This document shows, one piece after another, positions 10,476 to 30,145 of a DNA stretch of 64,000 nt. Under the pieces are notes generated by a model. It ran no database searches. It was not told the DNA's origin and was given only the letters and a program-made list of their open reading frames with translations. The number at the start of each line of letters is the position of its first letter. The stretch's first letter is position 1. Both the position numbers and the translations under genes were made by a program. Source of the DNA: Paenirhodobacter populi (GTDB taxonomy: Bacteria > Pseudomonadota > Alphaproteobacteria > Rhodobacterales > Rhodobacteraceae); the NCBI RefSeq assembly GCF_004022215.1, contig NZ_SAUZ01000001.1, positions 124,001-188,000 of the forward strand, read 5' to 3'.

Positions 10476-10583
10476 ATGGAACTCAAACCCGTTTTAAACT
10501 CCGGCCTCCCCAATGGAGAATCTCATATTTCGGAAGAATGTTCGTTTATCTCGCGGCTGGCGCAAGAGGCTACGCAGAGATGA
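10476..10583 (+). CDS. Possible 35-residue leader ORF ahead of the McrB-like gene
   Basis: An open frame ATG (10476) to TGA (10581-10583) whose stop overlaps the McrB-like ATG as ATGA. It has only a distant AAGGGG as ribosome site and no recognisable family. Translational coupling to the restriction subunit is the only argument for it. Confidence 0.25.
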   Translation: MELKPVLNSGLPNGESHISEECSFISRLAQEATQR

Positions 10584-12352
10584 GCTGGCCGATTTCAAAC
10601 CACGAGAGCCCAGACGTTGACCTCTCAATACCCGGCGTGACCGCACCTCACTATCTGTGGGCAATACTGTCCGCAGATGGAACCAACTTTCGGGAGCGCA
10701 ACTACGAGAGTACCCGTGCTGCGCTTAGGGCGGCAATAGATCGTTTTTCCACTAGGACTACTGGGGGTCAAAATCCAAACGCCGAGATCTCAGAGCAAAG
10801 GCTCCGGACATGGAAGACGGCGTTCGAAGAAATGGGGCTGTTGACGGTTGACGAAGATGGCACTGTCCAAGCCACCCGCTTTGGTCGCGCAGTTATCGAC
10901 AGCCTAGACGACGTAGCCGCGTCCTTAGAGGGAGCAAATCATAAGATTGCTCGACTGGGTGCGATGGTTGCAAACCGCGTCCTCCTAGCAAAGCCCGACC
11001 GAAGCGGCAATCCGGCTTCCGGCGTGCCGGCTGGATCAGACCTGCGTCCACTTCGGGCCATTTGGAAGGCCTTTCGGCAACTCGACAACAGGCTTCACTG
11101 GCAGGACATCAACCGCGTTCTCGGTCACATACACAACGAACACGAGCTCGAAAACGCCATCTCGCAGATTTCAGAATTTCGAAAGAGATTTCCGATGGGC
11201 TACTCTAACGAGTTGGAGCTCAAGGAGCTTGGCCAGAACGCTCTCACCAACGATCCACGGCACATAACACCTTGGTTCAACCGAGCCGGCTTGGGCGGAG
11301 TGTTGATCCCCTCGGAAGCGGCTTCCGATGGCTTTCGTACGCTGACCAACGAGAATGCCGCAATCTTGGATAGTCTACTCGATGAAGCCGTTCCTGAAGT
11401 CCCGCGCGACGCTTGGTCTAATCGATCGAGCTACATTTCCTACTTGATGTCGCCAGTTGAGGCCGCGGAACGCCCGCCCTTGGCGACGGCTGACATTAAT
11501 TTAGTGAAAGAGGTGTTGACGGCAGTAAGGGTGCACGGAGTTCGGAAAATCATAGCGCTCTCAGGTATACCAGGGACGGGAAAAACTCGTCTGGCGAGAA
11601 TTGTTGCCGATCAAATCACTGATGGAGATCCGTCGAGAAGCATGGAGATCCAATTCCACGATAGTACTTCATACGAGGATTTCGTTGAAGGGTTTGTTCC
11701 GAAAGCTGATGGACAGGGCTTTCAGCTTCGCTCAAAGACCCTTCGAAAAATTAATGAAAAGGCGTTGGAAGACCCCGGAAGAGAGTATGTTTTGGTGATT
11801 GAGGAATTTACTAGGGCGAACGCCCACTCCGTACTTGGCGAGTTGCTTACTTACATTGAACACCGAGGCCGGAAATTTACTCTTTCCATTTCTCAGTCTG
11901 AAACGCAAATCGCACCAAATTTGATCGTTCTCACCACAATGAACCCGCGAGATCGCTCGGCGCTCTCGCTGGACGACGCGGTAAATAGACGAGTTCACAG
12001 AATTCCCGTTCCCTCGTCTGTTGCTTCTTTAAAGGAGATGCTTCGTAGAAATTTGCCGCCCGAAGTCTTGGAACGGCTGGTCGAGTGGTTTGATCGGCAC
12101 CTTGAGGACTTGCCGTTTGGGCACGGTGTTTTTGCGCACGCGAAGGATACCGGCGCTCTAGCTGACATCTTCAACGGTACTGTACGGCCTTTATTGTCAG
12201 ATCCACTGGGGAGAGTTCACGAAGCATACGAGGCGGCCTACGACTCTTTTCCGTATCGACATGCCCAGTCTTCGGAAGAAGCTATTGGTGTAGATCAAGA
12301 CTCCAAATTGTCTGAGACTGAGGGCCTTCTGAGCATTGACCGATCGGCTTGA
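10580..12352 (+). CDS. McrB-like AAA+ GTPase, restriction subunit 1 of an LlaJI-like system
   Basis: A 590-residue McrB-type motor. Residues about 1-310 are a poorly conserved DNA-interacting N-terminal region. Walker A is SGIPGTGKTRL near residue 329; EDFVEGFVP follows as in McrB proteins; Walker B is a variant, VLVIEEFTRAN, with Glu where Asp is usual; the guanine-specific McrB motif is TTMNPRDRS. In LlaJI the GTPase R1 acts with a McrC-like nuclease R2 and two cytosine-5 methyltransferases. The same four genes are here. The ATG at 10580 is preferred over 10538. The next gene's upstream start option overlaps its stop. A/T-rich codons (ATA, TTA, AGA) set it apart from the core genes. Confidence 0.85.
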   Translation: MSWPISNHESPDVDLSIPGVTAPHYLWAILSADGTNFRERNYESTRAALRAAIDRFSTRTTGGQNPNAEISEQRLRTWKTAFEEMGLLTVDEDGTVQATRFGRAVIDSLDDVAASLEGANHKIARLGAMVANRVLLAKPDRSGNPASGVPAGSDLRPLRAIWKAFRQLDNRLHWQDINRVLGHIHNEHELENAISQISEFRKRFPMGYSNELELKELGQNALTNDPRHITPWFNRAGLGGVLIPSEAASDGFRTLTNENAAILDSLLDEAVPEVPRDAWSNRSSYISYLMSPVEAAERPPLATADINLVKEVLTAVRVHGVRKIIALSGIPGTGKTRLARIVADQITDGDPSRSMEIQFHDSTSYEDFVEGFVPKADGQGFQLRSKTLRKINEKALEDPGREYVLVIEEFTRANAHSVLGELLTYIEHRGRKFTLSISQSETQIAPNLIVLTTMNPRDRSALSLDDAVNRRVHRIPVPSSVASLKEMLRRNLPPEVLERLVEWFDRHLEDLPFGHGVFAHAKDTGALADIFNGTVRPLLSDPLGRVHEAYEAAYDSFPYRHAQSSEEAIGVDQDSKLSETEGLLSIDRSA

Positions 12353-12360
12353 GTTCGGAA

Positions 12361-13698
12361 ATGAAGTTGATTTTACAGGAACGTGGATCGTCTGTGGTGG
12401 TCTCTCTTGACGAGTGGCGTTCGCATTCTCTTGACCAGCCAATGAAGGCTTTGGCTTCGAAGAACGTGCTTCGGATTGCACGGAGCAATTCCGGTTTCGT
12501 TGTTACGCCTGGAAACTACGTCGGTGAACTTGTACTGCCGTCGGCCAGCGTAAGTATCGAGCCAAAATCTCCAAGCGTTCTAGCGGCAATGGATCGCTTG
12601 GCCTTGCTGTCAAAAGAAAAGCACTTGGAGAACCTGAAGTCAGAGGGTGTTCCGGATGGCTCCACAGAGGGCGATCCCGCTGGTGAGTTCCGTGATGCGC
12701 TTCTTGATTGCGTCTACGAGGGTATTCCTTGGCAGTACGTTCGAGAAACTCACACAACGTCATTCCCGAGAGGCAGAATAGAATTTGGCAAGACCGTACG
12801 CCAAATTGCAGCTCGAGGTATCCGTCATCGCGTAATTGCGACACGCCCAGTTCATCGCCAGGACCAACAGTTCAACCGTGTTGTTCAGTCTGTCATCCCG
12901 ATCCTTCCAACCCTAGTCGGCGTGACGGCGAGGACACTCAGGGAAGTACACACACTCTCCCAATCGCTCGATGTTGCAGAGCCATTCGGCACGAGCGAAG
13001 AGGCCATCGTAGCCGCTCACGACGCAATCCAGAATCTTGCTATAGGGTCCAACACAGCTGCTGTCAGGCTTCTTAAGTGCTGCATCCAAATTCTGACTAC
13101 GGGACACCTCTTCGCTGGATGGGTGGCGCACGTACCAAATGGGATAGCCAGGTTCCGCAACATCGAGGCGCTTTGGGAGCGCTGTGTGCAAGTACTCGTC
13201 GATGTGTGGCTCCAAGACTCGGCCGTCCAAGCCGATGCTCGTTTGCATGGACTGCGGGGAAGTGAAGCCCGCCTCTTCCCTGACGGGGGCCCTCTATTGG
13301 ACCCCGATGTCATTATTGAGGCCGAGGGCAGGACCATTGGCGCTATAGATGCGAAGTATAAGTTGTTGGATCCGATGAGTTCCGGCGCATCCGCAGACCT
13401 CTATCAGTTGACGTGCTACGTAAGAAGTCTGAATGCGGGTTTAGGAATTCTAGTTCATCTCACGGAAAGAAACGAATACGCCAAAGTCGTCGGCACGACG
13501 TTAGAAGGCGCGCCGATCGTCATAGTCACGATTTCCGACAAACTTCTCTTGCAAGAGAGAGCTTGTGCATTGAGCAGTCTCCTTGCTCGTTGGCCTCTCG
13601 TCCGAGAGCGCTTGGACCAGAGCTTCGCCCACTGCTTGGCCGAGACGAGGAGGAACCGCGTTGCCGATTTGTTTGGCAACGTCCTTCTTCGGACCTAG
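12361..13698 (+). CDS. McrC-like nuclease subunit 2 of an LlaJI-like system
   Basis: A 445-residue McrC/LlaJI-type subunit expected to bind the McrB-like motor and cleave DNA. The PD-(D/E)xK nuclease core is visible near the C-terminus: LLDPDVIIEAEGRTIGAIDAKYK, with catalytic Asp, Asp and Lys. The ATG at 12361 is chosen; an in-frame TTG at 12349 overlaps the previous stop (TTGA) and is possible. The last 198 bases overlap the 3' end of the minus-strand methyltransferase M1, tail to tail. It could also be called a generic McrC; the LlaJI label rests on the two partner methyltransferases. Confidence 0.85.
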   Translation: MKLILQERGSSVVVSLDEWRSHSLDQPMKALASKNVLRIARSNSGFVVTPGNYVGELVLPSASVSIEPKSPSVLAAMDRLALLSKEKHLENLKSEGVPDGSTEGDPAGEFRDALLDCVYEGIPWQYVRETHTTSFPRGRIEFGKTVRQIAARGIRHRVIATRPVHRQDQQFNRVVQSVIPILPTLVGVTARTLREVHTLSQSLDVAEPFGTSEEAIVAAHDAIQNLAIGSNTAAVRLLKCCIQILTTGHLFAGWVAHVPNGIARFRNIEALWERCVQVLVDVWLQDSAVQADARLHGLRGSEARLFPDGGPLLDPDVIIEAEGRTIGAIDAKYKLLDPMSSGASADLYQLTCYVRSLNAGLGILVHLTERNEYAKVVGTTLEGAPIVIVTISDKLLLQERACALSSLLARWPLVRERLDQSFAHCLAETRRNRVADLFGNVLLRT

Positions 13699-14631
13699 AA
13701 ACCTGAAGCTGTCCGGAAACGACTGCAGGCGCGCACCCTCTCGGCTTGTGATATTACGGTTCTCTTCAGGATGAGCAAAACGGCCGCGCGTGAAGTTGTC
13801 AAACATGGCAGTGATTGTACCCGCTGGACGGTCCCACCAGAGCCGACCAAAGACATCGAGATGGCGGTGACCATTTGAGGCCTTATGGCAGGGCAGCTGC
13901 AACTTCGAAGGCACGTCCAACCGTCCACCCCCTTCGGGAACGTAGCTTATCCTTTCAAGGTTTCGGGCTGAGATAGCCACACGGCGATGATTGTGGTGGT
14001 CGGGGTGTTCATTGAAGTCTTCTTGTGGAGACGGGAGATCGGCAATAGCCTCCCTTACAGTGACATATTGCTCCGGCAACCTCGTGGGCTCGGGAAAGGA
14101 GAACTGTGCATTCAAGTCCTTCCGAATGGCTACGACGAAGGCCCGCCGACGGAACTGGGGGACACCGTAAGAAACCGCGTCTAGAATGGCCTTGTGCAAA
14201 ACGTATTCTTGCTCCCAAGCCTCGGTGATAAAATCGATAAAGGCACGTCCCCGTGCGCCGAGAATAGTCGGAACGTTCTCCATCAAAATCGCTTTAGGCG
14301 ATAGGGCCAAGGCATACTGCCCAAACCTTTTCACAAGTTCGTTCCTGGCGTCGAGAGGTTGTCCGCGACGTTGGACCGAAAAGCCCTGACATGGCGGCCC
14401 CCCAGCTACTATGTCAACCCGCTCCGTCGAATCGCGAACCATCGAAATGAACTCGCTAACGGAGGTCTGTGACAGGTCGAGTTGACGGACGTGATCGCCA
14501 AGGTTTGCTCGGTATGTCGCACACGAATGCGAGTCAAAATCGGCCGCGAAAACAGGCCTTATGCCTGCCTCCCGCAACCCAAGTGAGAGTCCGCCAGCTC
14601 CACAGAAGAGGTCAACTGCTTGGAGCGCCAT
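13501..14631 (-). CDS. DNA (cytosine-5) methyltransferase M1 of an LlaJI-like system
   Basis: A 376-residue C5 methyltransferase that would protect one strand of the target site with AdoMet as methyl donor. Motif I LFCGAGGLSLG binds AdoMet; motif IV GGPPCQGFS holds the catalytic Cys; MENV (VI), QFRRRAFVV (VIII) and QIGNAVPP (X) are in order. The ATG at 14631 shares one base with the stop of the second methyltransferase, so the pair is co-translated. Motif X and the tail are encoded antisense to the end of the McrC-like gene. LlaJI has two such enzymes because its site is asymmetric. Confidence 0.93.
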   Translation of the reverse strand: MALQAVDLFCGAGGLSLGLREAGIRPVFAADFDSHSCATYRANLGDHVRQLDLSQTSVSEFISMVRDSTERVDIVAGGPPCQGFSVQRRGQPLDARNELVKRFGQYALALSPKAILMENVPTILGARGRAFIDFITEAWEQEYVLHKAILDAVSYGVPQFRRRAFVVAIRKDLNAQFSFPEPTRLPEQYVTVREAIADLPSPQEDFNEHPDHHNHRRVAISARNLERISYVPEGGGRLDVPSKLQLPCHKASNGHRHLDVFGRLWWDRPAGTITAMFDNFTRGRFAHPEENRNITSREGARLQSFPDSFRFLGPKKDVAKQIGNAVPPRLGQAVGEALVQALSDERPTSKETAQCTSSLLQEKFVGNRDYDDRRAF

Positions 14632-15893
14632 CAAGCCACCTCTGCTTCTTGTTCAGCGAGCCTGAGGCGCCTCTTCATTCCTGCCAGAGCTGAAGAAATG
14701 GATTTCTCGATAGGTGCGCGCACGTCTTCTTCAAGTGAAGTCCTTTCGGCCTCGCCGACCCAAGCTTGATCGATATGTTCTGCCAACGCGCGAGCGAAGG
14801 TTGGTGCGACAGCATTGCCAATCTGCTTGAACTTGTCGTCAAACGGTCCTTCGAAATGATAGTTGGCTGGGAAGCCTTGCAACAGGCCCGCTTCTCGAAC
14901 GGATAGGCCCCTGTCTTGCGTAGGGTGTACAAACCTGCCGCAAGACGGCGTTCGACAACGAGCGGTAATTGCTACAGCCGGACGATCCCACCACAACCTA
15001 CCATAAACATCTCGGAAGCCATCAACCTTCGTGTGACATTGGGGACCAACGCCATCAGGAAGCGATTTCCTGCTGCCTCCGTCGTGCGGAATGAGCTTGA
15101 GAAGCTCAACCGTTTCGCGGCGGTGCTTTGACGTCTTGTGCATCGGATCATGTTTGCACTCTTCGCCCGCAGAAAGAGGTGGTAACTCGCCAATAGCGTC
15201 TCGAACCGAAACAAACTTGCTTGGAGCATGTGTGGGTCGCGGCATTTCAGTGCGATGAGAGAGCCGTGAAGATAACACCAAGGCCCTATACCGCTCTTGC
15301 GGAACACCAAAGCTGGCGAGGTTGTGTAATCGTGCGCGTGTAATATACCCATGTTCCTCCAATTGTGACGAGAACGCTTCATAATGCTTCCAATATTTTT
15401 TTTGAAGCATTTCGGGTACATTTTCCATTACAACCAATGCCGGCTCCAGCGCCAGAACGATGGCGCCAAAAGCGGCAAGAAGCTCATTTCTCTCGTCTTC
15501 GCGGGGATCTTTCTTTCTGTGAGAGCTGAACCCTTGGCAGGGCGCACATCCAATTAGGATCAGCGGCTTACTTGAGTCATAGCCCCACTGAGAGAGGGCC
15601 TCCTCGAGCGATTCGCGATCAGTCAGTCGCCGAATGTCGTTCATTATGGCGGGCTTCTTCAGCATCCGCTCGTATGTCGCGTTGGCGTGCCGGTCGATGT
15701 CGAGGCCGCCGAGAACACGATACTTTACATTGCGAGTGGTAGCAGTGTGGAAGCCGAAAGACATACCGCCACAACCGCTGAAGAAGTCAATCACCTGGAC
15801 CTCTTCAATGCCTCGACCCACATGAGATTTCATTTTTTTATTTAGTTGCATCGATGGTCTCAATCTTTCGTTCTTGTTATTATTTTCATTCAT
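14631..15893 (-). CDS. DNA (cytosine-5) methyltransferase M2 of an LlaJI-like system
   Basis: A 420-residue C5 methyltransferase. Motif I is FFSGCGGMSFG, motif IV GCAPCQGFS with the catalytic Cys, motif VI MENV, motif VIII QERYRALVL and motif X QIGNAVAP. The variable target-recognition part between VIII and X (VSVRDAIGELPPL...) resembles M1, as expected for a pair reading two strands of one asymmetric site. A Lys/Arg- and Glu-rich C-terminal extension of about 45 residues follows motif X. The ATG at 15893 overlaps the end of the upstream 52-residue gene, which suggests coupled translation and a regulatory link. Confidence 0.92.
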   Translation of the reverse strand: MNENNNKNERLRPSMQLNKKMKSHVGRGIEEVQVIDFFSGCGGMSFGFHTATTRNVKYRVLGGLDIDRHANATYERMLKKPAIMNDIRRLTDRESLEEALSQWGYDSSKPLILIGCAPCQGFSSHRKKDPREDERNELLAAFGAIVLALEPALVVMENVPEMLQKKYWKHYEAFSSQLEEHGYITRARLHNLASFGVPQERYRALVLSSRLSHRTEMPRPTHAPSKFVSVRDAIGELPPLSAGEECKHDPMHKTSKHRRETVELLKLIPHDGGSRKSLPDGVGPQCHTKVDGFRDVYGRLWWDRPAVAITARCRTPSCGRFVHPTQDRGLSVREAGLLQGFPANYHFEGPFDDKFKQIGNAVAPTFARALAEHIDQAWVGEAERTSLEEDVRAPIEKSISSALAGMKRRLRLAEQEAEVA

Positions 15894-16044
15894 GTCGCGA
15901 TGCTTCTTTATCGAGGTGCTCACGTACAAAGCCGGCGATAAGGGTTGATTTCTTGTAGCCCTTTTCTTCGCAATACGCGGAAAAGCGGCGATCCTCTTGA
16001 TGCTCTAACAGAACCGTCACTTGTTTCTTGTGTTCCCTAGCCAT
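15886..16044 (-). CDS. Small ribbon-helix-helix-like protein, possible RM control protein
   Basis: A 52-residue frame with a strong ribosome site (GGAGGTGGCG directly before ATG at 16044). The product starts MAREHKKQVTVLLEHQEDRR, a beta-strand, then SAYCEEKGYKKSTLIAGFVREHLD, two helices: the CopG/Arc ribbon-helix-helix pattern of small DNA-binding dimers. Its stop codon lies inside the first codons of M2 (8-base overlap), so it heads the methyltransferase operon. It may repress or time that operon as control proteins do. Family assignment is by eye and the role is inference. Confidence 0.65.
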   Translation of the reverse strand: MAREHKKQVTVLLEHQEDRRFSAYCEEKGYKKSTLIAGFVREHLDKEASRHE

Positions 16045-18475: not shown

Positions 18476-19141
18476 TTACGGGACCACCGGATAGAACGGC
18501 TTGCCCCAGTCCTTGCCGGGATTGTCCATCATCAGATCAATGAAGGTCGGCATCAGGAAGCCAAGGATCGCGGCGCCGTCGCGGACCTGCGCCCGGTTCA
18601 CGCCGCTGTTCCAGGTGGCGCCGCCATGGACCAGCTGGTTGCGCAGGACATAGAGCCGGTCGAAGACGAAACTGAGAACGCGCGCCGTGTCGCCGGCCTG
18701 GAAAGCCTGCGTGAAGGACCGGGCTGAGGACTTGAATTGATCCTCCCAATCGTCGAATCCGTCGATGCCGTTGTGATGCTGCCAGAACGGATTGAAAACA
18801 TAGCGGTTTTCCAGCAGCAGCCGAACCGGCCCCGAAAACCGCTGCCAGACGGCCTTGTAGATGCGCCGGTCGCCATCGAGCGCCACCAACCGCCCGAAGA
18901 AATCGGCGAAGGCCGCGCGTTCGCCGGGGGCAATGGCCTGAAACTCCCGCTCGTCCGCATAGGCCGCGTTAAACGCGATCCAGAGGAAGATGAAGCGAGC
19001 GTCATCGTCCTCGCCGCAAGCCTCGGCGCGCCCGATCCAGCTGATGGCGCGATGGACGCGCAGGCCCATGGTCTCGGGAAAGCCACCGCGAATGGCGCGC
19101 TGCCTGGTCTTCAGCGCTGCATGGTCGAGAACATCCTTCAT
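18476..19141 (-). CDS. HEPN-like domain protein
   Basis: A 221-residue, mostly helical protein. Near the C-terminus RLYVLRNQLVHGGATWNSG carries the R-x4-H motif that forms the RNase site in HEPN domains; upstream FIFLWIAFNAAYAD is a typical core helix. HEPN proteins are frequent RNA-cutting effectors in defence and toxin systems. The ATG at 19141 follows GGGAG at seven bases and is preferred over TTG at 19147. It lies 24 bases downstream of the WYL regulator on the same strand, so the two are probably one transcript. Confidence 0.6.
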   Translation of the reverse strand: MKDVLDHAALKTRQRAIRGGFPETMGLRVHRAISWIGRAEACGEDDDARFIFLWIAFNAAYADEREFQAIAPGERAAFADFFGRLVALDGDRRIYKAVWQRFSGPVRLLLENRYVFNPFWQHHNGIDGFDDWEDQFKSSARSFTQAFQAGDTARVLSFVFDRLYVLRNQLVHGGATWNSGVNRAQVRDGAAILGFLMPTFIDLMMDNPGKDWGKPFYPVVP

Positions 19142-19165
19142 CCACAATCTCCCACTGAAAATCCG

Positions 19166-20149
19166 TCACGGCAAGGCATCGAAATCCGGCCTTCGATAGC
19201 CTTCGACCAGGGTCCGCAGCCCGTCAGGCGCGATCACCTCGACCTTGTCGCCCCATTGATAGAGATGCCATGCCATCTCGAGCCATCCGGCCGCATTGAA
19301 CCGGACGATCAGGCTTCCGTCGTACTGCGGCTCAAGGATCTGGGTGGGGTGAAAGCGGAATTCGGCGGCGCGCGCGGCGGCCTCGGGCGCGAAACGCCAG
19401 ATCACCTCGCCATACTGCGCCGGGTCCTGATAGACGCCGAAGGCCTTGGCGGCATAGTCCTCCAGGATGAACCCCCGCGCGAAGGCAAAGCTTTCGTCCA
19501 GCACCTCGGCGGCATGGATCCGGTCCATGCGGAAATTCAGGATCGTCTCGCTGCGCGCCGGCTGCCGCGCCACGAGGTAGCTGCGGTGACCCAGCAGCAG
19601 GCCGTGCGGTTCGATCACCCGTGGAGCGGCGTCCGCCGCTCCGTAGGTGACGCGCAGGCGAAACGGTCCTCGCAGCGCCTCGATCACGGCATCCGTCACC
19701 TCTGGGCGCAAGGCGACGGTCGGACCGGGGCGCATGACCTGGCCAAGACCCGCCAGCACTGCTTCGGCGTCGGCCTCTGACCGGCTGGCGTCACGCGGAG
19801 TCAGCCGCGCCAGCAGCCCGTCACGCAGATCCTCCAGTGCCCGCGCATGACGCAGTCGCGCCTGGTCCCGGGCAGACCGGGCGGCGATCTCCAGCGCCTC
19901 GATGGTGGTTTCCTGTCGCGGTTGCAGGCGCTCGGACGGGGGCGCCTCGAGCCGCCAATAGCGACGGCGATCCTCGGCATCCGTGGTCGTGACATTGGCG
20001 AAGGCGGCGTCCAGCGCTTCGGTCATCCGTTGCGCGGTGCGGTGCGAAACGCCGAACTCGGTGCAGATGTCCTTAAGACAGACGCCTCCGCGTCGGGAGG
20101 CCGCCATCTGGGCAAGACGAAGCAGATCCTGAGCCTTGGCGAAAGACAT
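19166..20149 (-). CDS. WYL domain transcriptional regulator
   Basis: A 327-residue regulator. Residues 1-60 form a helix-turn-helix (GGVCLKDICTEFGVSHRTAQ); about 150-235 form the ligand-binding WYL domain (YGAADAAPRVIEPHGLLLGH then RSYLVARQ); the C-terminal part is the WCX extension (MAWHLYQWGDKVEVIAP). WYL regulators commonly control phage-defence operons and sense nucleic acid or nucleotides. It is divergent from the nuclease-helicase gene with 105 bases between starts; that gap holds a TTGACA at 20169-20174 toward the helicase. Confidence 0.9.
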   Translation of the reverse strand: MSFAKAQDLLRLAQMAASRRGGVCLKDICTEFGVSHRTAQRMTEALDAAFANVTTTDAEDRRRYWRLEAPPSERLQPRQETTIEALEIAARSARDQARLRHARALEDLRDGLLARLTPRDASRSEADAEAVLAGLGQVMRPGPTVALRPEVTDAVIEALRGPFRLRVTYGAADAAPRVIEPHGLLLGHRSYLVARQPARSETILNFRMDRIHAAEVLDESFAFARGFILEDYAAKAFGVYQDPAQYGEVIWRFAPEAAARAAEFRFHPTQILEPQYDGSLIVRFNAAGWLEMAWHLYQWGDKVEVIAPDGLRTLVEGYRRPDFDALP

Positions 20150-20254: not shown

Positions 20255-23200
20255 ATGAGGAACCTCGACGGCCGCATCCTACTGTCCGCCTCGGATCTCA
20301 TGCGGTTCATGGGCTGCACTCATGCGACCACTCTCGATCTGGCCTTCATGCGCGGCATCGGCCCCGAGCCGCGGGAAGACAGCGAGGACGCGGCCCTGCT
20401 GCAAAAGCAGGGCGACGCCCATGAGGCTGCGCATCTGGCGCGCCTCAACGCGGCGGGCCGCGGTATCGTGGAGATTTTGCGCGGCAACCTCGCCACTGAC
20501 GCCGAGACCACGCGTGCGGCACTGGCGGCCGGGCCGGAAGTGGTGTTCCAGGGGGCCTTCCTGTCAGGCAACTGGGGCGGCTGGTCGGATTTCCTGGAGC
20601 GGGTCGAGCGCCCCTCCGCGCTTGGATCCTTCAGCTATGAGGTGGCCGACACCAAGCTGAAGCGCCGCCCGCACCCGAAGCATGTGCTGCAACTGGTGCT
20701 CTATTCCGACCTCTTGACCGAAATTCAGGGTGCTGCGCCCGAGTTCGCCCATGTCGAGCTGGGGGACGGCACCCGCGCAACCCTTCGGCTATCGGATTAC
20801 GCGGCATACGCCCGCATGGCGCGGGCACGGCTTGAAGATTTCGTGACCGATCCGCAGCCGACACGCCCGACGCCACGTGCCGATTGTGGTTTGTGCCGCT
20901 GGGGAGATCATTGTGCCGGTGTCTGGCAGGCCGAGGACAGCTTGTTCAATGTCGCCAATATCAGCCGCAGCCAGGTGAAGAAGCTGGAAGCGGCGGGGAT
21001 CACCACGATGGCGGCACTTGCAGGTCTCGATCACCCGATCCGCGGCATGGCGGAAAACACGCGTCTGCGCCTTGTGACACAAGCCCGGCTGCAACATGCC
21101 CGCAAGACCGGTGCACCTGCTTTCGAACTGCGCGCACCCGAAACCGGAAAGGGCTTCGATCTGCTGCCCGAGCCGCAGCCGGGCGATCTGTTCTACGATA
21201 TCGAAGGCGATCCGCATTTCGAGGGCGGCCTCGAATACCTGCATGGCGTCTGGTTCGACGGGCAGTTCCGCGCATTCTGGGCGCACGATCATGCCGCCGA
21301 GGGGCGCGCGCTCGCCGAGCTGCTGGAGTTCTTCCGCGCGCGTCTCGTGGCATACCCCGATGCGCGCATCTATCACTACGCCGCTTACGAGATCACCGCG
21401 CTGCGGCGGCTCACCACGAAATACGGTATCGGCGAAGCCTTCCTCGATCGTCTTCTTCGCGAGCGGCGTTTCGTCGACCTGTTCGCCGTGGTGCGCGGCG
21501 GGCTGATCGGCTCCGAGACCAACTATTCCATCAAGTCGATGGAGGCCTTTTATGGCCGCAAGCGCGAGGGCGAGGTCAAGACGGCGGGCGGATCGGTCGT
21601 GGCCTATGAGAACTGGCGCGAAGCCGGTGAGCAGCACATCCTTGACGAGATCGAGGATTACAATCGCATCGACTGCATCTCGACCGAGGAGTTGCGCGAC
21701 TGGCTGGTCGGCATTCGGCCTAGGGGCCCATGGCCGTCGCCCGGTCAGGACGCAGGCAGCAAGGAAGCAGAGGAGGATGCCGACACGCAGGCGCTGCGTT
21801 CGGCTCTTGCGGCATCCGGCCTATCCGAAGACCGACGGGAGACGCTGTTCAACTTCGGCCTCTTTCACAAGCGCGAAGCCAAGCCCGCGCAATGGGCGGT
21901 GTTCGACAGCGTGGGCAAGGACGAGGACGATCTGATCGACGATCTTGATGCACTCGCCGGGCTCGAAGCCGTGGGGTCGGCCGAACCCGTCAAACGCTCG
22001 ATGGCGCGCACCTATCGCTTCCCGCAGCAGGAAACGAAGTTGCGGGGCGGCAGATCGGCGACTGTGCCGGTCCTCGATGGTCCACCTGCTACCATCAGCA
22101 TCACGGATCTGGACCGCACCGCGCGCGAGATCACCCTCAAGGCTGGGGCGGCGAAGGCGCATCTTCTGACAGACCGCCTGACCCTGCACCCGGACTGGCC
22201 GCTGAATACCGACGTCATCGCTGACGCCCTGCGCGATGTGATTGCCGATCAATGCGGCCCGCGCACCTACCAAGCGGTTGATGATCTGCTGTCCCGCGCG
22301 GCGCCGAGCCTGACCACTGGCCCGCTGCGGCCCATTGACCATCCGGTCGCGGGGACAATCGCCGCCGTGGCCGCGATGGATGGAACCGTGCTGCCTATCC
22401 AAGGACCACCCGGCACCGGCAAGACCTATGTCACCGCAAGAGCGATCCTGTCGCTGGTGCGCCAAGGCGCGCGCGTGGGCGTCACCTCGAACAGTCACGA
22501 GGCGATCCGCAACGTGTTGATGGGCTGCCTGAGCGCGCTGGAGGATGCGGACCTGCCGATCACGCTCGACCTCGTCCACAAGACCGGCGGAGAGGATGAC
22601 GGCTATCCCGAGGATTGCCCCGTCCATCGCACCAACAGCAATGACGAGGCCGCCGGCGGAAGGCATGTTGTCGGTGCTACTGCCTGGTTCTTCACCCGCG
22701 ACGAGAACGTGCAGGCGTTCGACTGGCTGTTTGTGGACGAGGCCGGACAGGTGGGACTGGCCAACATGGTCGCCATGGGCCGTGCCGCAAAGAACATCGT
22801 TCTGGTCGGCGATCCGCGCCAGTTGCCACAGGTTGTCCAGGGCGCGCATCCGGAACCCGCGAACCTCTCCTGCCTCGATTGGATGCTGGGCGACCACGCC
22901 ACCGTGCCACCGGACCGGGGCATCTTCCTGCCGGTCTCGCGCCGGATGCACCCCGAGGTCTGCCGGTTCATCTCCGATCAGGTCTATGAGGGGCGGCTGG
23001 AAAGCCATCCCGACACCGCGCGTCAGGCCGTGACCGGCACTGGCTTCCCCGAGGCAGGGGCCTACTGGGTTTCGGTGTCGCATGAGGGCAACGCGCAGAT
23101 CGCGCCCGAGGAAGTCACCGCCATAAGGGCTGCCGCAGACGACCTGCTGAAGGGCACATGGACTGACAAGGACGGCCAGACGCGACCCATCCGACAATCC

Positions 23201-23578
23201 GATATTATCGTCGTCGCACCCTACAACGCGCAGGTGAACGCCCTGCGCGGCGCGCTGCCCGAAGGCATCCGCGTCGGCACGGTGGACAAGTTCCAGGGCC
23301 AGGAAGCGCCGGTCTGCCTCGTCTCGATGACCGCATCATCGGCCGAAGAAACGCCTCGCGGCATGGAGTTCCTGTTTTCGCTCAACCGTATCAACGTCGC
23401 CGTGTCCCGCGCCAAGGGGCTGGCGCTCGTCTTCGGCGCCCCGCGCATGCGCGAGGCAAAATGCGAGACGGTCGAGCAGATGCGGCTGGTGAACACGCTG
23501 TGCGCTCTGCCCAAATATGGAGACATTGGAATGGGCAAGAAATTCGATCATCTGTCTCGCGATCGAGCCGATGCCTGA
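20255..23578 (+). CDS. RecB/Cas4-like nuclease - DEDD exonuclease-like - SF1 helicase fusion (TM0106 family)
   Basis: A 1107-residue fusion. Residues 1-230: RecB-like nuclease of the TM0106 type, with catalytic YEVADTK (128-134) and four cysteines at C21, C211, C214 and C220 in the C...C-x2-C-x5-C layout of the iron-sulfur cluster of AddB, Dna2 and Cas4. Residues about 310-485: RNase H-like YprB-type domain with DLFYDIEGDP, HYAAYEITALRRL and DYNRIDC supplying acidic residues. Residues about 700-1080: superfamily 1B helicase of the UPF1/Dna2 type, Walker A GPPGTGKT near 718, Walker B FVDEAGQ near 827, motif VI NRINVAVSRAK near 1043. It opens the operon that ends in McrB/McrC. The last 16 residues appear to be read-through into inserted DNA. 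Confidence 0.88.
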   Translation: MRNLDGRILLSASDLMRFMGCTHATTLDLAFMRGIGPEPREDSEDAALLQKQGDAHEAAHLARLNAAGRGIVEILRGNLATDAETTRAALAAGPEVVFQGAFLSGNWGGWSDFLERVERPSALGSFSYEVADTKLKRRPHPKHVLQLVLYSDLLTEIQGAAPEFAHVELGDGTRATLRLSDYAAYARMARARLEDFVTDPQPTRPTPRADCGLCRWGDHCAGVWQAEDSLFNVANISRSQVKKLEAAGITTMAALAGLDHPIRGMAENTRLRLVTQARLQHARKTGAPAFELRAPETGKGFDLLPEPQPGDLFYDIEGDPHFEGGLEYLHGVWFDGQFRAFWAHDHAAEGRALAELLEFFRARLVAYPDARIYHYAAYEITALRRLTTKYGIGEAFLDRLLRERRFVDLFAVVRGGLIGSETNYSIKSMEAFYGRKREGEVKTAGGSVVAYENWREAGEQHILDEIEDYNRIDCISTEELRDWLVGIRPRGPWPSPGQDAGSKEAEEDADTQALRSALAASGLSEDRRETLFNFGLFHKREAKPAQWAVFDSVGKDEDDLIDDLDALAGLEAVGSAEPVKRSMARTYRFPQQETKLRGGRSATVPVLDGPPATISITDLDRTAREITLKAGAAKAHLLTDRLTLHPDWPLNTDVIADALRDVIADQCGPRTYQAVDDLLSRAAPSLTTGPLRPIDHPVAGTIAAVAAMDGTVLPIQGPPGTGKTYVTARAILSLVRQGARVGVTSNSHEAIRNVLMGCLSALEDADLPITLDLVHKTGGEDDGYPEDCPVHRTNSNDEAAGGRHVVGATAWFFTRDENVQAFDWLFVDEAGQVGLANMVAMGRAAKNIVLVGDPRQLPQVVQGAHPEPANLSCLDWMLGDHATVPPDRGIFLPVSRRMHPEVCRFISDQVYEGRLESHPDTARQAVTGTGFPEAGAYWVSVSHEGNAQIAPEEVTAIRAAADDLLKGTWTDKDGQTRPIRQSDIIVVAPYNAQVNALRGALPEGIRVGTVDKFQGQEAPVCLVSMTASSAEETPRGMEFLFSLNRINVAVSRAKGLALVFGAPRMREAKCETVEQMRLVNTLCALPKYGDIGMGKKFDHLSRDRADA

Positions 23579-23996
23579 TCCCGATCTCCGCATCCTCGCA
23601 CGCTTCTTGCCGGAATTCGAAAGTCCGGATTTCCCGCTGGGCGTCTGGTCCCCGATGCAGCAGGCGGAAGATGGTGTGTACACCATGCCGTACGTCACGC
23701 TTTCTCCGGTCGTGGAGGAGTTTGTGCAAGCGGCATACGACGGCGGATGGGTGCTGTGTGATTTAGACTGGCCCAAGTGGAAGGAAACGGAAGAAGCGAT
23801 AACGCGCTATCGCGATCCTGACGCATTAGCCCGTGCGACGCCTCACCAACTCGCGCAGTTGCTTACGGTGTTCATCCGCCAGGACCGGTTCGTCGAGGGA
23901 GCCTTGCTGGACGACGTCAAGAGCGGCCACGTCCTCGCAATACTCCGTCGCGCCGCAGAGCTCCTGGGGTCTGGCGAACCTTCGTCCGAGTGCTGA
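23571..23996 (+). CDS. DUF6508 domain-containing protein
   Basis: A 141-residue protein whose end, LTVFIRQDRFVEG then DDVKSGHVLAILRRAAEL, carries the DUF6508 signature; function is unknown. The ATG at 23571 lies inside the end of the helicase gene (stop 23576-23578) and replaces a longer in-frame start at 23517. It appears to be an insertion: 85 bases past its stop begins a diverged copy of the helicase C-terminus, which in turn runs straight into the McrB start. Confidence 0.75.
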   Translation: MPDPDLRILARFLPEFESPDFPLGVWSPMQQAEDGVYTMPYVTLSPVVEEFVQAAYDGGWVLCDLDWPKWKETEEAITRYRDPDALARATPHQLAQLLTVFIRQDRFVEGALLDDVKSGHVLAILRRAAELLGSGEPSSEC

Positions 23997-24080
23997 GACC
24001 ACCCAATGGAACTTCGCAGTCCATACATCTTCATGATCCTGCGAACCAAGAGTATGACGCCCATGTTCTTCGCGTGACAG

Positions 24081-24164
24081 TTGCGGGAAGCAACATGCGA
24101 ACCTGTCGATCAAATGCACCTCGTCAATACATTGTGCGCACTGCCTAAAGCTGGAGAAATTTGA
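24081..24164 (+). pseudogene. Diverged duplicate of the helicase C-terminus (27-codon scar)
   Basis: Read in frame, this segment ends in TCEPVDQMHLVNTLCALPK followed by AGEI and a stop, matching the end of the nuclease-helicase (KCETVEQMRLVNTLCALPK, then YGDI). Nineteen of 27 residues agree while the DNA differs mostly at third codon positions, so both copies evolved as coding sequence. The stop TGA directly abuts the McrB ATG at 24165. It is the expected native end of a helicase gene in an uninterrupted operon, now without the rest of the gene. Confidence 0.8.
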
Positions 24165-27100
24165 ATGTGGGAAGGCTTCAAGGCACGCCTCGACGAGAAT
24201 GAGCTAGATCGTCCGATACCGCTGCGCCGCGTTCTGTTCGACGTGCTTCGCAGCTCGGGGCTTCGCCCCGGGAACGGCGTCACCAAGAAAATGCTGGCAT
24301 TCGAGTTTGGCGAAGGTGAACGCCTCCTTTGGGAAATCCAGAACCCGAGCAATGTCTTTATCCACGAGAAATGGCGCGATCTGATCGAGGCGAACGGCTT
24401 TTCCAACGAGCCGAGGCCCTTTCAGAGCGGCATGAAGGATGGCAGTCGGCATTCCGCCCTCAGCCGCGACTGGTCCTTTGGCGATGCCAACTGTTTTGTC
24501 GTGCGGATCGAGAGCGCCGAAGCCTTGCGCCGGCTGATCGCGGTGCTGTTGCAGTCCAGCGATGCCTTGGTACTCAACCCAGCTGCGATCACGCGCTGGA
24601 TCGAGCGGCTGCGCCATTTCTTTCCAGCACTCGACCGTTTCGACCTGCCGGATCCGCATTTCGACGAGGCGGAACGGACCTACAAGCTGGAGATCGCGGC
24701 CGTGCTCAAGGCCGCGATCGGGCAGGCTGGCTCCGATCAGGAACTGGCCGATGCCGTCAACACCGCACTGGTCAAAAGCAACCTTCTGCAATGGCGTGCC
24801 TATTGGCCGATGTCGCCCAAGGGGGATGCCGATCGCGAAAAGCTATGGCCCGCCTTGCGTGGGCTTGTCGATGCGGCGCTGGGCACGCCGGAGGGCCACG
24901 CCGCTGCGCTGGAAGCCTTTGTCGACGCCTGGCTAGCAGCAGTTTCGGAGGGCAAGCCCGATCCGGCGCGCCAGATCGCTGAATTCCTGTTCCTCCATCT
25001 CGCTCCTAACGATGGCATTTATATTCGCCATTCCGTGCGTCAGGACCTCTGGCTGGAAGCCGTCGGCAGCCGGTTTCCCGATCACGCGTCGATGGCCGAC
25101 ACCTATCGTGACGAACTGCGCTTCATGCAGGCGGTACGCCGGGCCTTCGCGTCCCAAGGCTTGGCGCCGCGCGATATGATCGATGTGCAAGGCGCGCTGT
25201 GGATCGTCCACAACTACAAGGAAGAGGACGCGGCCACATCTTCGCGCGAGGCGATCGAGGCCGCGATGGACGCCTATGACAGCTACCGGCGGTCAGGCGA
25301 GCATGGCGCCATCTTCGATGCCTTCGGCGAACCGCGCGACTATTGGGTCCGCTCGACACGCGAGCGGCCAAATCGGGTTTACCCTTCAAAGCCGATCGTC
25401 GGCTTCCTGCGCGGGAAAACAAAACTCAATGGTGGTTGGGGGCAGAAGGACGATGCCGCCGCGCAGCTTCACAACGCCGGTTATATCATCGTCGATGGCG
25501 ATGACACGCCAGTCACCCCGCCCGAGCGCTATGAGCATCTGATCGGCAATGCCGACCGGATCCGGCTATGCGCACGCAACTATTATGTCGAACCGGCTCG
25601 CGAGAGCGGCGCGGCGGAAGTTGCGATCCGTGCCGGCGACCTCGGCCACAACATGGGTCTGCGCGATCGGCATCCGGCGATTTGCAGTGCGCTCGGGAGC
25701 GAGGAGTTCCAGCGATGTGCCCAGGTTCCACCGCCGACGAACACCTTGCCCAATCCCAGCAGTTCCACAGTCTTCACCTATCAGCTCGCCTCAGCGGAAG
25801 GGCACGAAACCATGACCTTTGAACCCATGATCGCGATGCCCGCCGCCACCAATCTCATCCTTTACGGCCCTCCGGGAACCGGCAAGACCTATGCCACGGC
25901 CTGGGAGGCCGTGCGGCTTTGCCTGGGTGACGCCGCAGCCGAACCGCTGCGCGATGATCGCGACGCCCTGATGGACGAATATCACCGTCTTGCCGGCGAA
26001 GGCCGGATCGAGTTCGTCACTTTCCACCAGTCCTTTTCCTACGAGGATTTCGTGGAGGGCTTGCGGCCGACGACGGGGAGCGAACAGGAAGGTGGCGAAG
26101 AAAGCGCCAGTGCCTCGGGAGGCTTCAGCCTCAAGCCCCATGCCGGTGTGTTCAAGATCATCAGCGAGAGGGCACGGCTCGACACGGGTGATGCGCCTGC
26201 CAAGCGACTCGACCGTTCGCGTCCGATCTACAAGATCGCGCTCGGCCAGCGCGGCAGTCAGGAAGACCGCATCCGCGAAGGCCTCGCTGGCGGATTAATC
26301 CATCTCGGCTGGGGCGGCGATATCGACTGGTCTGGCGAGCGTTTCGACGATTTCGAAGAAATCAGGAAGGCGTGGAACGACCAGAAGGATCCCGATGCAT
26401 CCGGCAAGGACCCCAATATCGAAATGCTCTACGCGTTTCGGTCCGGTCTCCAGGTCGGCGACTATGTCGTCATCTCCGATGGCCGTGACAGCTATCGCGC
26501 CTTCGGACGGGTGAGCGGCGAATATTATTTTGATGCCGATGCCGATTTCCATCCACACCGGCGCAGCGTCGAATGGATCTGGCGAGATGACAACGGAGCG
26601 GAGCGCGCACCATTCTACGCCCGGAACTTCCGCCGACAGTCGGCCTACCGGCTCGATCCGAACCGGATTGACTGGGATGCGTTGGAATCGGTGGTGATCG
26701 ATCCCAATGCCGAGCGGCCGGTGGCGAGCGCGCGGCCGCATGTCCTCATCATCGACGAAATCAACCGGGCCAATATCTCCAAGGTTTTCGGCGAATTAAT
26801 CACGCTGCTAGAAATCGACAAGCGGCTAGGTTGCGAAAACGAAGTCAGGGTCAGACTTCCCTATTCGGGGACGAGTTTCGGCGTACCTGCCAACCTGCAT
26901 ATCATCGGCACCATGAACACCGCGGACCGCTCTATTGCGCTGCTCGACACTGCCTTGCGCCGCCGCTTCACCTTCCGCGAGCTGATGCCCGACGTTGAAG
27001 AACTACGCCGGGTGCTGGCGGCGCGGCAGCTTGATGCCGCAGATCTCGAGGGGGTCGATCTGTGCAAGCTGCTGCACACCCTCAACGAGCGGATCGAATA

Positions 27101-27395
27101 TCTCTTCGATCGCGAACACCAGATCGGACATGCCTATTTCACCGGTTGCCGCAGTCGCGCCGATGTTGAGAACGTCATGCGTCACAAGGTTATCCCGCTT
27201 CTGGCGGAATATTTCTACGAGGACTGGTCGAAGGTCGCCGCCGTCCTTGGCGATGGCGACGGAGCTAACGGCTCCCATTTTCTCGAAGCCAGACGATTGA
27301 TGGTGCCGGCCGGCTTTGCCGATGATGAGTTGGGCGGGGACAAGCTGCGCTGGAGCGTGAAGGCCAGCTTCGATTTCTCGGACTTTGCAGCCTGA
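24165..27395 (+). CDS. mcrB: McrB-like AAA+ GTPase with PUA/EVE-like insert
   Basis: A 1076-residue McrB-type motor. Residues 1 to about 550 are a large N-terminal region I cannot assign. The motor has Walker A LYGPPGTGKTYAT near 567, FHQSFSYEDFVEGLRP, Walker B LIIDEINRANISK near 862, the guanine-specific GTMNTADRS near 917 and DTALRRRF as arginine finger region. Between Walker A and B, about 690-850, lies a PUA/EVE-like domain (GGLIHLGWGGDIDWS, LQVGDYVVISDGRDSYRAFG, HRRSVEWIW); such domains read modified bases. The stop overlaps the mcrC start by one base. It is the motor of a modification-dependent restriction pair. Confidence 0.88.
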   Translation: MWEGFKARLDENELDRPIPLRRVLFDVLRSSGLRPGNGVTKKMLAFEFGEGERLLWEIQNPSNVFIHEKWRDLIEANGFSNEPRPFQSGMKDGSRHSALSRDWSFGDANCFVVRIESAEALRRLIAVLLQSSDALVLNPAAITRWIERLRHFFPALDRFDLPDPHFDEAERTYKLEIAAVLKAAIGQAGSDQELADAVNTALVKSNLLQWRAYWPMSPKGDADREKLWPALRGLVDAALGTPEGHAAALEAFVDAWLAAVSEGKPDPARQIAEFLFLHLAPNDGIYIRHSVRQDLWLEAVGSRFPDHASMADTYRDELRFMQAVRRAFASQGLAPRDMIDVQGALWIVHNYKEEDAATSSREAIEAAMDAYDSYRRSGEHGAIFDAFGEPRDYWVRSTRERPNRVYPSKPIVGFLRGKTKLNGGWGQKDDAAAQLHNAGYIIVDGDDTPVTPPERYEHLIGNADRIRLCARNYYVEPARESGAAEVAIRAGDLGHNMGLRDRHPAICSALGSEEFQRCAQVPPPTNTLPNPSSSTVFTYQLASAEGHETMTFEPMIAMPAATNLILYGPPGTGKTYATAWEAVRLCLGDAAAEPLRDDRDALMDEYHRLAGEGRIEFVTFHQSFSYEDFVEGLRPTTGSEQEGGEESASASGGFSLKPHAGVFKIISERARLDTGDAPAKRLDRSRPIYKIALGQRGSQEDRIREGLAGGLIHLGWGGDIDWSGERFDDFEEIRKAWNDQKDPDASGKDPNIEMLYAFRSGLQVGDYVVISDGRDSYRAFGRVSGEYYFDADADFHPHRRSVEWIWRDDNGAERAPFYARNFRRQSAYRLDPNRIDWDALESVVIDPNAERPVASARPHVLIIDEINRANISKVFGELITLLEIDKRLGCENEVRVRLPYSGTSFGVPANLHIIGTMNTADRSIALLDTALRRRFTFRELMPDVEELRRVLAARQLDAADLEGVDLCKLLHTLNERIEYLFDREHQIGHAYFTGCRSRADVENVMRHKVIPLLAEYFYEDWSKVAAVLGDGDGANGSHFLEARRLMVPAGFADDELGGDKLRWSVKASFDFSDFAA

Positions 27396-28708
27396 TGGCC
27401 GCCTACACGGTTCGTGAATGGGACAAGCTCGCTTATGGCGAGGCCGTAGGTCAGATCCCGACTCGCCATGCCGACCGACTGGCGGGGCTGGCGGCCCGCT
27501 CGGCCTTTGCCGGCCGTGGCGGCAGCGGGGTGCTCGAACATGGCCGGTATGCGTTGCGAGCTCGCGGCGTGGTGGGGATTCTCGTGGCGGGCGATGCGAG
27601 CCTGGAGATCTTGCCCAAGATCGATGTGGCGACCGGTGAAACACCCGATCACCAGAACGCGGCGATCCGCAAACGCCTGGTGCATATGCTGGCCATTGCG
27701 CTCGATCTCAAGATCGACCTCGGCGTCATCACCGATCTCGCCTGGCAGCGCGAAACGCTGCTGGAAATCCTGATCCGCATCTTTTGTGACAAGCTGACCG
27801 AAGCCCTGCGCGAGGGCATGCCACGCCGCTATGTCGAGCGCGAAGAAGACTTACCGACCTTGCGCGGCCGACTCGACATTACCCGCCAGTTCACCCGTCA
27901 TGCGGTCAATCCTTCGCGCCTCGCCTGCCGCTTCGATCTCCTCTCAGAAGACACCCCCCTGAACCGCATCATGAAGGCCGCAGTGGTCCGCCTGTCACGC
28001 CTCTCGCGGCGCAGCGCCAACCAGCAGCGCCTGCGCGAGCTCGCCCTTGTTTACGCCGATATTTCCGATGTGCCGATCCCGGCGCTGCGATGGGATGATG
28101 TCATCATCGATCGCACCAACAGGTCTTGGCAGGAGCTGTTCGTCATGGTGCGCCTCTTCCTTCAGGACCGCTACCAGACGACGACGGGCGGGCCTGGCCA
28201 AGGCACCGCGATGCTGTTCGAGATGAACGCGCTTTTCGAAGAATATGTCGGGCGGCTGATCGGTCGCGCGCTGGCGGGAACCGGGCTCACCGTCTCGCTG
28301 CAAGGCGGACGCCTGTTCTGCCTGAGCGCGCAGGACAGCGAACGCGGGCTATTCCAGACCAAACCCGACATCCTGATCCGCAGGGGCGGCACAGTAACCC
28401 ATGTCATCGATACCAAATGGAAGCGGATATCCTCACGGATCGATGACCCCAAACAAGGGGTCTCGCAGGCCGACGTCTATCAGATGATGGCTTATGCGCA
28501 GCTCTATCGCGCGCCGCGCTTGACGCTGCTCTATCCCCATCACCCTGGCCTCGGAACCGACGAAGTGATTCACGCCCGCCATCGGATTACCGGGCATGCC
28601 ACTATTCTGGAGACCGCGAGCATCGACGTGGCGAACAGTAAGAATATGCTTGATCGCATCCGGCAACTGCTTATCGGCGATGACGCCATGGTCGATGCCA
28701 TTGTTTGA
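27395..28708 (+). CDS. mcrC: McrC family nuclease subunit
   Basis: A 437-residue McrC protein that would pair with the McrB above and cut DNA when the motor stalls. It has the N-terminal beta-rich domain (SLEILPKID), the central PTLRGRLDITRQFTRH segment typical of McrC, and the C-terminal PD-(D/E)xK nuclease FQTKPDILIRRGG...VTHVIDTKWKRI with acidic and Lys residues intact. It is more closely related to standard McrC than the subunit at 12361. It is the last gene of the operon. Confidence 0.9.
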   Translation: MAAYTVREWDKLAYGEAVGQIPTRHADRLAGLAARSAFAGRGGSGVLEHGRYALRARGVVGILVAGDASLEILPKIDVATGETPDHQNAAIRKRLVHMLAIALDLKIDLGVITDLAWQRETLLEILIRIFCDKLTEALREGMPRRYVEREEDLPTLRGRLDITRQFTRHAVNPSRLACRFDLLSEDTPLNRIMKAAVVRLSRLSRRSANQQRLRELALVYADISDVPIPALRWDDVIIDRTNRSWQELFVMVRLFLQDRYQTTTGGPGQGTAMLFEMNALFEEYVGRLIGRALAGTGLTVSLQGGRLFCLSAQDSERGLFQTKPDILIRRGGTVTHVIDTKWKRISSRIDDPKQGVSQADVYQMMAYAQLYRAPRLTLLYPHHPGLGTDEVIHARHRITGHATILETASIDVANSKNMLDRIRQLLIGDDAMVDAIV

Positions 28709-29019: not shown

Positions 29020-30145
29020 TCACGCCGCCTCGCGAGTGTAGGAGGTGATGATGCCGCCAAGCTGGCGCCGGCAGCGGATCGGGCCGTCACGGGCAGGTCG
29101 AAAGTCGACCTGCAGCACATTGTTCCCGATCTCGCGCCCGCGATGCGGGCGCTCGACATTGTAATGGTGCACCCATGTGCGCAGGATATAGTCGAGCTGA
29201 GACCGGCTGAAGCAGACGAAGAAGTCCAGGCATTCGCGCTTGATGGTGCCGATGAAGGATTCGGCGAAGGCATTGGCATTCGGCGCCCTGTGCGGGATCT
29301 GGATGACCCTGGCAGCTTCCGATGCCCAGACGGTATCGAGGCTGCCGCTGAACTTGGTGTCAGCGTCGCGGATCAGGAAGCGCGGCGTGATCCCCTGTTC
29401 CGCGCACCACATCAGCGTGTTGCGGGCCTGCTGGGTCACCCATGCCGAGTCGGGGGCGTAGGTCGGGGCGCTGCAGACCACGCGGCGGCTGCCGAGATGG
29501 ATGAAGATCAGCACATAGGCCGTCAGCGGACCACGGGCGGTGAACACGGTCTTGGTGAAGAAGTCGCAGGCGACCATGCTTTCCATATGCGCCCGGACGA
29601 AGGTGGTCCACGGCAGGGCCGGCTGCTTTTTCCGCTTCTCGGGGGCTCGGGTGGATGCCCGCCTCATTGAGAATGCGCTTGACCGAATTGGCGCCGGCAT
29701 AAAGCCCGAGCTTTTTCAGTTCCCCGGCGATCCGCTTGTAGCCCCAGAGAAGGTTTTCCGACCCGATGCGGATGACGACATCGCGCAGCTCCTGTGTCAG
29801 GCGCGGGCGCCCGACGGCCTTGAAGGGGCGCCCGCTGCGCATCTGGGCGAGCCAGCGCTTGTAGGTCGCGGGCCTGGCCACCTCCATGAGCCCGTCGATA
29901 TCGTGCCCGCACTCCGCCCCGATGCGCAGCAGCTCGGATTTCTCGGCGGGCGACAGGATGATCCGTTGCGCCGGGATGCGGGTCCGCAGAATATGGATCT
30001 GGGCCTTGAGCAGCCGCATCTGCGCGTTGTGCCGCGGCATGAAGAGCCGGGCCAAGAAGACCAGAAGGAGGGAGAACGTCGAATTCATCTTGCCGGGCTC
30101 CACCACGGCGCTAAAAATTGCCGTCATGTCAATGCGATGAGACAT
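29020..30145 (-). pseudogene. DDE integrase-core transposase, frameshifted
   Basis: Two minus-strand frames make one transposase. The N-terminal half (30088 or 30145 down to about 29650) has the helix-turn-helix and RPRLTQELRDVVIRIGSENL...GYKRIAGELKKLG; the C-terminal half (about 29660 to 29020) has the rve catalytic core: VACDFFTKTVF, FLIRDADTKFS and NAFAESFIGTIKRECLD give D, D and E. The frames break at the sequence coding NEAGIHP, within an AGCCCCC run near 29652; dropping one base rejoins them. Either a true inactivating frameshift or a base-calling error. I could not define terminal inverted repeats. Confidence 0.75.

Follow-up and report, generated by a model that had tools for sequence, protein, structure and literature searches.

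Probable module displacement in an McrBC defence operon of Paenirhodobacter populi, with a DUF6508 gene at the join

Displacement of a gene end has been described for Rhs genes, where an old core fragment and its tip are shunted downstream and the fragments decay (Jackson et al. 2009, PMC2935791), and for effector-immunity modules of the T6SS, for which a process like homology-facilitated illegitimate recombination has been proposed (Kirchberger et al. 2017, PMC5361080). The locus described here resembles C-terminal displacement in Rhs in having a constant core and an exchangeable 3' part. In PMC2935791, however, the exchange takes place inside a toxin gene, and cores are described as identical whether attached or dissociated; in our case complete genes follow downstream of a defence helicase, and the tails are clearly diverged in two of three loci. 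As in the T6SS, new cargo stands behind a conserved anchor and the 3' end of the old gene is shifted downstream; the T6SS case (PMC5361080) concerns secretion effectors, whereas ours concerns phage defence and comes without a located homologous anchor point. A third point of comparison is formed by the CoCoNuTs (PMC11090510), which likewise encode McrB/McrC together with a UPF1/DNA2-like SF1 helicase. The CoCoNuT helicases are CnuH with coiled-coil partners, and the main text of that article does not mention TM0106, RecB or Cas4; in our loci mcrBC is one cargo among several. Our case is probably a gene-end displacement of a known kind, here in a phage-defence operon. In the open-access PMC literature no description of this helicase slot was found.

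The window, by which we mean the whole stretch of 64,000 nucleotides that was analysed (genome G000, contig 1, positions 124001-188000), carries a module that starts on the minus strand and continues on the plus strand. The minus strand holds an outer left gene of HEPN type (18476..19147), for which the Pfam scan gave no match and whose relatives are annotated as HEPN domain-containing, and a gene for a WYL/WCX-domain regulator (19166..20149; PF13280 and PF25583). These are followed on the plus strand by the helicase (20255..23578), a DUF6508 gene of 141 amino acids (23571..23996), mcrB (24165..27395; AAA_5, 51.4 bits) and mcrC (27395..28708; PF10117, 240.4 bits), the last cargo gene of the module. 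The N-terminal half of the helicase is a TM0106-family RecB-like nuclease (TIGR03491, 264.9 bits) and the other half an SF1 helicase according to the Pfam scan. With the genes for the McrB AAA/GTPase and the McrC nuclease found together, the window's mcrBC is a predicted McrBC type IV restriction system. Similarity to the loci L040, L043, L048 and L060 starts at 18480-18482, at the HEPN stop; against L039 it continues beyond this stop to 18104.

Some other features of the window were observed along the way. A second McrB/McrC-like pair lies at 10538-13698, within a region (9843-15929) that by eye also contains two C5 cytosine methyltransferase-like genes and a Vsr-like gene, and a tRNA-Ser is located near this pair at 9452-9541. 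Directly after the defence operon, at 29020-30145, stands a transposase-like remnant with overlapping frames that looks IS3-like by eye.

A sequence-only reading had reported a second helicase C-terminus between the DUF6508 gene and mcrB, and our analysis confirms it. This second copy (tail 2, 24084..24164, plus strand) ends in TGA and the ATG of mcrB adjoins it directly; its counterpart at the present helicase 3' end (tail 1) occupies 23450..23530. Over the 26 codons before the stop 20 residues are identical, where the earlier count had been 19 of 27 alike, and 58 of 78 nucleotides agree. This is far above chance, since the runner-up, with all frames of the window considered, agrees at 8 of the 26 residues. 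The differences were said to lie mainly at third positions, and indeed they number 3, 3 and 14 at the three codon positions, that is 14 of 20. Profile searches recover tail 2 with E-values of 1.1e-6 (one whole genome) and 3.9e-6. The homology is not confined to 27 codons, as had been supposed, but extends weakly leftward to approximately 24036 (24036..24083; tblastn, 54% over 48 codons), and the profile match to the second copy spans 24039-24143. Since this weak homology runs through an in-frame TGA at 24069-24071, the second copy is a decaying stub. The share of amino-acid-changing codons is 0.53 for tail 2 against 0.38 in intact pairs, which is a modest selection signal. A repeat scan of the window missed the pair of tails and says nothing on repeats either way.

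Eleven relatives (L040, L043, L060, L077, L082, L120, L121, L123, L055, L051 and L061), picked because their helicase and mcrB matches meet, join the two genes directly, and the structure of the window must therefore be regarded as derived. The similarity of the window to these uninterrupted operons, which the sequence-only reading had proposed to look for in relatives, ends at 23522-23547 and resumes at 24082. In the closest kind of uninterrupted relative the helicase ends with ...LCAL-P-x-x-G-x-x-stop, directly followed by the ATG-TGG of mcrB. At the position of the ancestral helicase TGA the window reads GGA (23528-23530), and the codons after the lost stop are homologous to the start of mcrB. 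When positions 23510-23549 are compared with the uninterrupted junctions, 28 of 40 nucleotides match in L060 and L123, 27 in L043 and 24 in L040, while every other 40-nucleotide stretch of these four loci gives at most 23 matches. Because of this match the foreign part is placed near 23550, and not at 23535 where the insert had been thought to start. The helicase extension of 16 residues that was noted earlier does exist; it is not all insert, though, but partly a read-through into an mcrB-start stub (23531..23549, plus strand) that is fused in frame to the helicase. Some six mcrB codons are left before the foreign DNA (approximate edges 23550..24035, plus strand). The match across the junction implies that the window's type of helicase, which we call A-type, was also once placed in front of an mcrB.

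In the last helicase codons of the uninterrupted junctions a GGAG or similar site is found, and tail 2 has kept it (24153..24156, plus strand) as the likely ribosome-binding site of mcrB. Helicase, DUF6508, mcrB and mcrC can for this reason be read as one operon, and they may be co-expressed, with DUF6508 as a working accessory. The kept site would also explain why tail 2 survived: a leftover tail would supply the start signal of the next cargo. It might be argued from the preserved GGAG site and TGA-ATG junction that the arrangement is old and fixed, with DUF6508 and tail 2 as functional, conserved parts of the operon and tail 2 serving, for example, as a translational coupler. We consider this most improbable. 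The uninterrupted relatives disfavour it, tail 2 contains the in-frame stop and the raised share of amino-acid-changing codons mentioned above, and a DUF6508 gene follows the helicase in the window only, that is in 1 of 103 loci, whereas an old structure was expected by the sequence-only reading to show DUF6508 with the same second tail in all homologous operons. Furthermore, among 394 genomes of the family the window's is the one that carries DUF6508. In the class it was found in 2 of 190 genomes, the window's included, and a tblastn search of 80 of the helicase-locus records found none.

That the join brings together two diverged versions of the operon, as was proposed before, agrees with the third-position lineage signatures of the two tails. 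Seven diagnostic sites were defined from five A and six B loci, allowing one dissenter per side (L048 and L088 were dropped, having no tail by motif). Tail 1 shows 5 A and 2 B states and tail 2 shows 0 A and 5 B, to be read with the caveat that just these seven sites exist and that tail 2 is decaying. Tail 2 is also nearer to each of seven B-type tails (48-53 of 69 nucleotides) than to each of eight A-type tails (43-47). In the helicase tree the window is placed beside L040 and L042, with a support of no more than 82; a separate branch, with support 100, unites the B loci L043, L060, L077, L121 and L123. Forcing the window together with L043, L060, L077 and L123 is rejected (p-AU 1.6e-34), as is a grouping with L040 alone (p 0.0003), whose nearer neighbour is L042; a grouping with the wider B set stays above rejection (p 0.061). 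The B-type loci that are split from the window in this tree have an mcrB close to that of the window: in the mcrB tree the window, L040, L043, L060, L077, L121 and L123 form one cluster of seven rows with support 100 and unsettled order. Here the window with L040 stays above rejection (p 0.37), and placing it with the four B loci (p 0.026) or with the wider B set (p 0.047) meets weak rejection. The lineage split is accordingly carried by the helicase body and the two tails, since mcrB alone does not separate the lineages. A count of A/B sites along the genes (252 A and 130 B in the helicase, 65 A and 226 B in mcrBC) had looked like a clean chimera; it is biased, because it weighs a single A taxon against three B taxa that agree, and was set aside in favour of the trees and tail sites. 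In L120 (9001-12297) the last helicase codons are B-type and the body falls outside the B helicases in the tree, which shows that the type of the tail can differ from that of the body; perhaps this locus has another seam inside the helicase gene.

To see the slot behind the helicase in a wider setting we compiled 103 helicase loci, leaving out L052, L054 and L066, which duplicate other loci, and keeping L037, L168 and L169, which have no full helicase, outside the count. A few of the 103 represent one genome from two collections (for instance L051/L176 and L073/L174) and six have less than 500 nucleotides downstream of the helicase. The genes that follow are of many types: McrBC, TmtA-like proteins (PADLOC, up to 1425 bits), SNF2 helicases, RmuC, DUF4357 proteins, a calcineurin-like phosphoesterase with an SMC-like ATPase, and toxin-antitoxin pairs. 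The upstream gene is constant, the downstream module is exchangeable and the boundary between them is sharp. Across 943 pairs with different cargo, the final A of LCA has an identity of 1.00, which drops to 0.76 at +1, 0.20 at +2 and at most 0.15 from +3 onward, and beyond the seam pairs with the same cargo score higher at every position shown. This comparison uses the 49 of 96 tails that were kept as close (at least 22 of 30 residues like those of the window), with L176 omitted as a repeat of L051 and with loci without a recognised cargo cluster counted as different from all. The number of helicase codons after LCAL varies from 3 to 27 across these loci. The drop in identity at the seam implies that the last few helicase codons tend to travel with the cargo, and part of it may reflect the end of the folded protein.

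Second tails are rare. Four copies were found in three of the 103 loci (the window, L028 and L109), always on the same strand and downstream, and the other 100 have none in the downstream DNA compared. As a control we used 16 consecutive helicase segments of 66 residues as profiles: the last one gives these four second copies in three loci, 14 give zero, and the Walker A segment gives 34, of which the 12 listed fall in mcrB loci at the expected P-loop. The control misses stubs shorter than about 20 codons, and outside the window it covers between 0 and approximately 22 kb of downstream DNA.

In the second of these loci, L028 in genome G021, the junction is resolved. The order is helicase (81% identical to that of the window), a gene of 2480 amino acids, a gene of 877 amino acids, a broken helicase tail and mcrBC. 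Compared with the Roseivivax locus L093, L028 is 91% identical from 1287, at the HEPN stop; compared with L201, which is a longer stretch of the same Roseivivax genome, it is 93% identical up to 16634, which is 5 nucleotides past the last cargo stop. From 16655 onward it follows L042 (71-74%), in which the same tail and mcrBC adjoin without an insert. Two histories thus meet within approximately 20 nucleotides, and L028 has a complete helicase-cargo module abutting the helicase tail and mcrBC of another lineage. A third copy of the L028 cargo is present in Amaricoccus (L202), and there too the match ends at the cargo end. The junction at 16634/16655 is non-homologous; that of the window, near 24036, is blurred by decay. 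No breakpoint of a homologous cross-over was found inside the window helicase or inside the L028 module, which resembles Roseivivax over its whole length, so that a homologous anchor within this module is no more than hypothetical. The simpler forms before and after the event are extant, being the empty sites and, for L028, L042 and L093/L201. The suggestion that variants of this operon exchange cargo at this exact point is supported: the cargo varies there, and L028 provides a second independent case with its junction located.

The third locus is L109. Its helicase is 43% identical to that of the window, and downstream lie a copy of its own helicase end (copy 2; 90 of 91 nucleotides identical, with sharp edges on both sides) and another copy (copy 3; 62 of 66). 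These copies stand among toxin-antitoxin pairs of the Phd/ParE, TacA/GNAT and ParE types, the antitoxin of the last pair giving a sub-threshold DUF6290 match only; the region (13298-15840), with its near-exact helicase 3' end copies, looks like a stack of cassettes. The duplicate of 90/91 nucleotides lends some weight to another explanation of the window, in which a single operon received DUF6508 together with a long duplication of the target, and ordinary homologous recombination from upstream later replaced the helicase copy with A-type sequence. The two copies in the window overlap by approximately 100-130 bp, as a long duplication would. Nonetheless we regard this explanation as unlikely: the window would require two events, DUF6508 is without a match in phage records or PHROGs, and the second tail of L028 is of a different lineage from the helicase that precedes it.

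Tails also occur outside intact operons (L037, L168, L169 and L235). The sequence-only reading had proposed to compare the insert ends between strains, and these coincide in part: the two sharply defined left edges, those of L109 copy 2 and L028, lie at the same codon, 1055. The left edges of the other displaced tails are less certain or differ, however, with approximately 1063 for L109 copy 3, 1033 for L235, 1040 for L037 and 852 for L233. The shared codon, together with an orphan tail and large gene in L168 at about 30 nucleotides from a tRNA-Ser, might indicate site-specific integration, with the helicase 3' end as attachment site, a recombinase moving some 31 helicase codons plus cargo, and displaced tails that start at a fixed codon. 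This is very unlikely in our opinion. Apart from the deviating edges, no recombinase is found among the scanned genes between the tails, and in L028 the helicase body accompanies the cargo instead of the displaced tail, an outcome not expected from a simple integrase acting at the tail. An integrative element at a gene 3' end would have a fixed cross-over position with an identical core in both copies; the window tails agree at 58 of 78 nucleotides, and codon 1055 is shared by two loci, the other edges being different. A related idea is that the helicase 3' end forms the edge of a mobile cassette, in which the last 31 or so helicase codons and the defence cargo move as a unit that stacks behind modules or settles at tRNA genes, codon 1055 being the recombination site. 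This too is quite unlikely, and the strict model with a fixed edge is held as a minor reading since the other copies have other edges.

 In L168 (1723-3836) the tRNA-Ser is followed after roughly 30 nucleotides by the orphan tail and then by a gene of 615 amino acids, by eye a DUF262 (GmrSD-type) protein. L233 is the whole of contig C593 of genome G158 and consists of an array in which every decaying 3' part of the helicase is accompanied by an ORF of 83 amino acids; the tandem array has a period of 1575 nucleotides (approximately 230 helicase codons plus the 83-aa gene) and its repeats are 84.5% alike. A small ORF similar to this 83-aa ORF is found near the orphan tail in L235. In L036 (4934-5989, genome G030) the helicase has an internal deletion that joins residues 1-265 to 1004-1092.

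The DUF6508 gene at the join had been recognised before and proves to be intact (23571-23996): PF20118 matches with 133.8 bits over profile positions 2-126 of 129, which is near full-length, and the domain begins at the ATG at 23571, overlapping the helicase stop (ATGCCTGA). A single-sequence structure model was poor (mean pLDDT 55.3). The domain was found on 9 of 72,556 plasmids, two of which also carry this helicase. In Croceicoccus it lies 15 nucleotides after a HEPN gene that is 58% identical to the window's, and in Mesorhizobium it is fused to GIY-YIG; other contexts are seen in Sphingomonas, Planktothrix and Deinococcus, and no pairing with HEPN was seen in the plasmids of these three or in L167. 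On a Mesorhizobium plasmid (L125) the GIY-YIG/DUF6508 fusion occupies 9609-10862, with a helicase and a WYL gene approximately 11 kb away. Relatives of DUF6508 were found neither in phage records, IMG/VR (by peptide patterns) and PHROGs nor among solved-structure sequences, and its name is absent from the open-access PMC literature searched. A link to the nuclease parts of such systems is plausible; that DUF6508 is the partner of their HEPN or nuclease part is a tentative and somewhat doubtful proposal. The antitoxin-like role suggested for it earlier finds no support beyond the one pairing in Croceicoccus.

Summarizing, the locus is probably the scar of a module displacement, in which two diverged versions of the operon were joined with DUF6508 at the join. 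Behind this stand five observations: the empty sites, the lineage signatures of the tails, the lost stop, the exact seam, and the second case with a located junction. The displacement would proceed stepwise behind a constant front (HEPN, WYL and helicase), with the exchangeable cargo starting one to two codons past ...LCA. Lineage A would have given the front, the helicase and the mcrB stub, and lineage B the last 27-43 helicase codons and mcrBC. A short dead helicase tail remains because the non-homologous junction falls near the end of the old helicase. The DNA might have entered by a recombination that used homologous module sequence as its anchor and closed illegitimately at the far end, or alternatively by a single cross-over of a circle. 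The newcomer may be either the DUF6508 gene or the tail with mcrBC.

The simpler forms that are still extant show how one defence front end swaps its cargo at a codon-exact seam. Displaced helicase tails are a searchable mark of such swaps, through which the history and direction of exchange within defence islands could be traced. If the helicase 3' end were indeed the edge of a mobile cassette, defence cargo would possess a dedicated means of exchange, much as Rhs tips or integron cassettes do.
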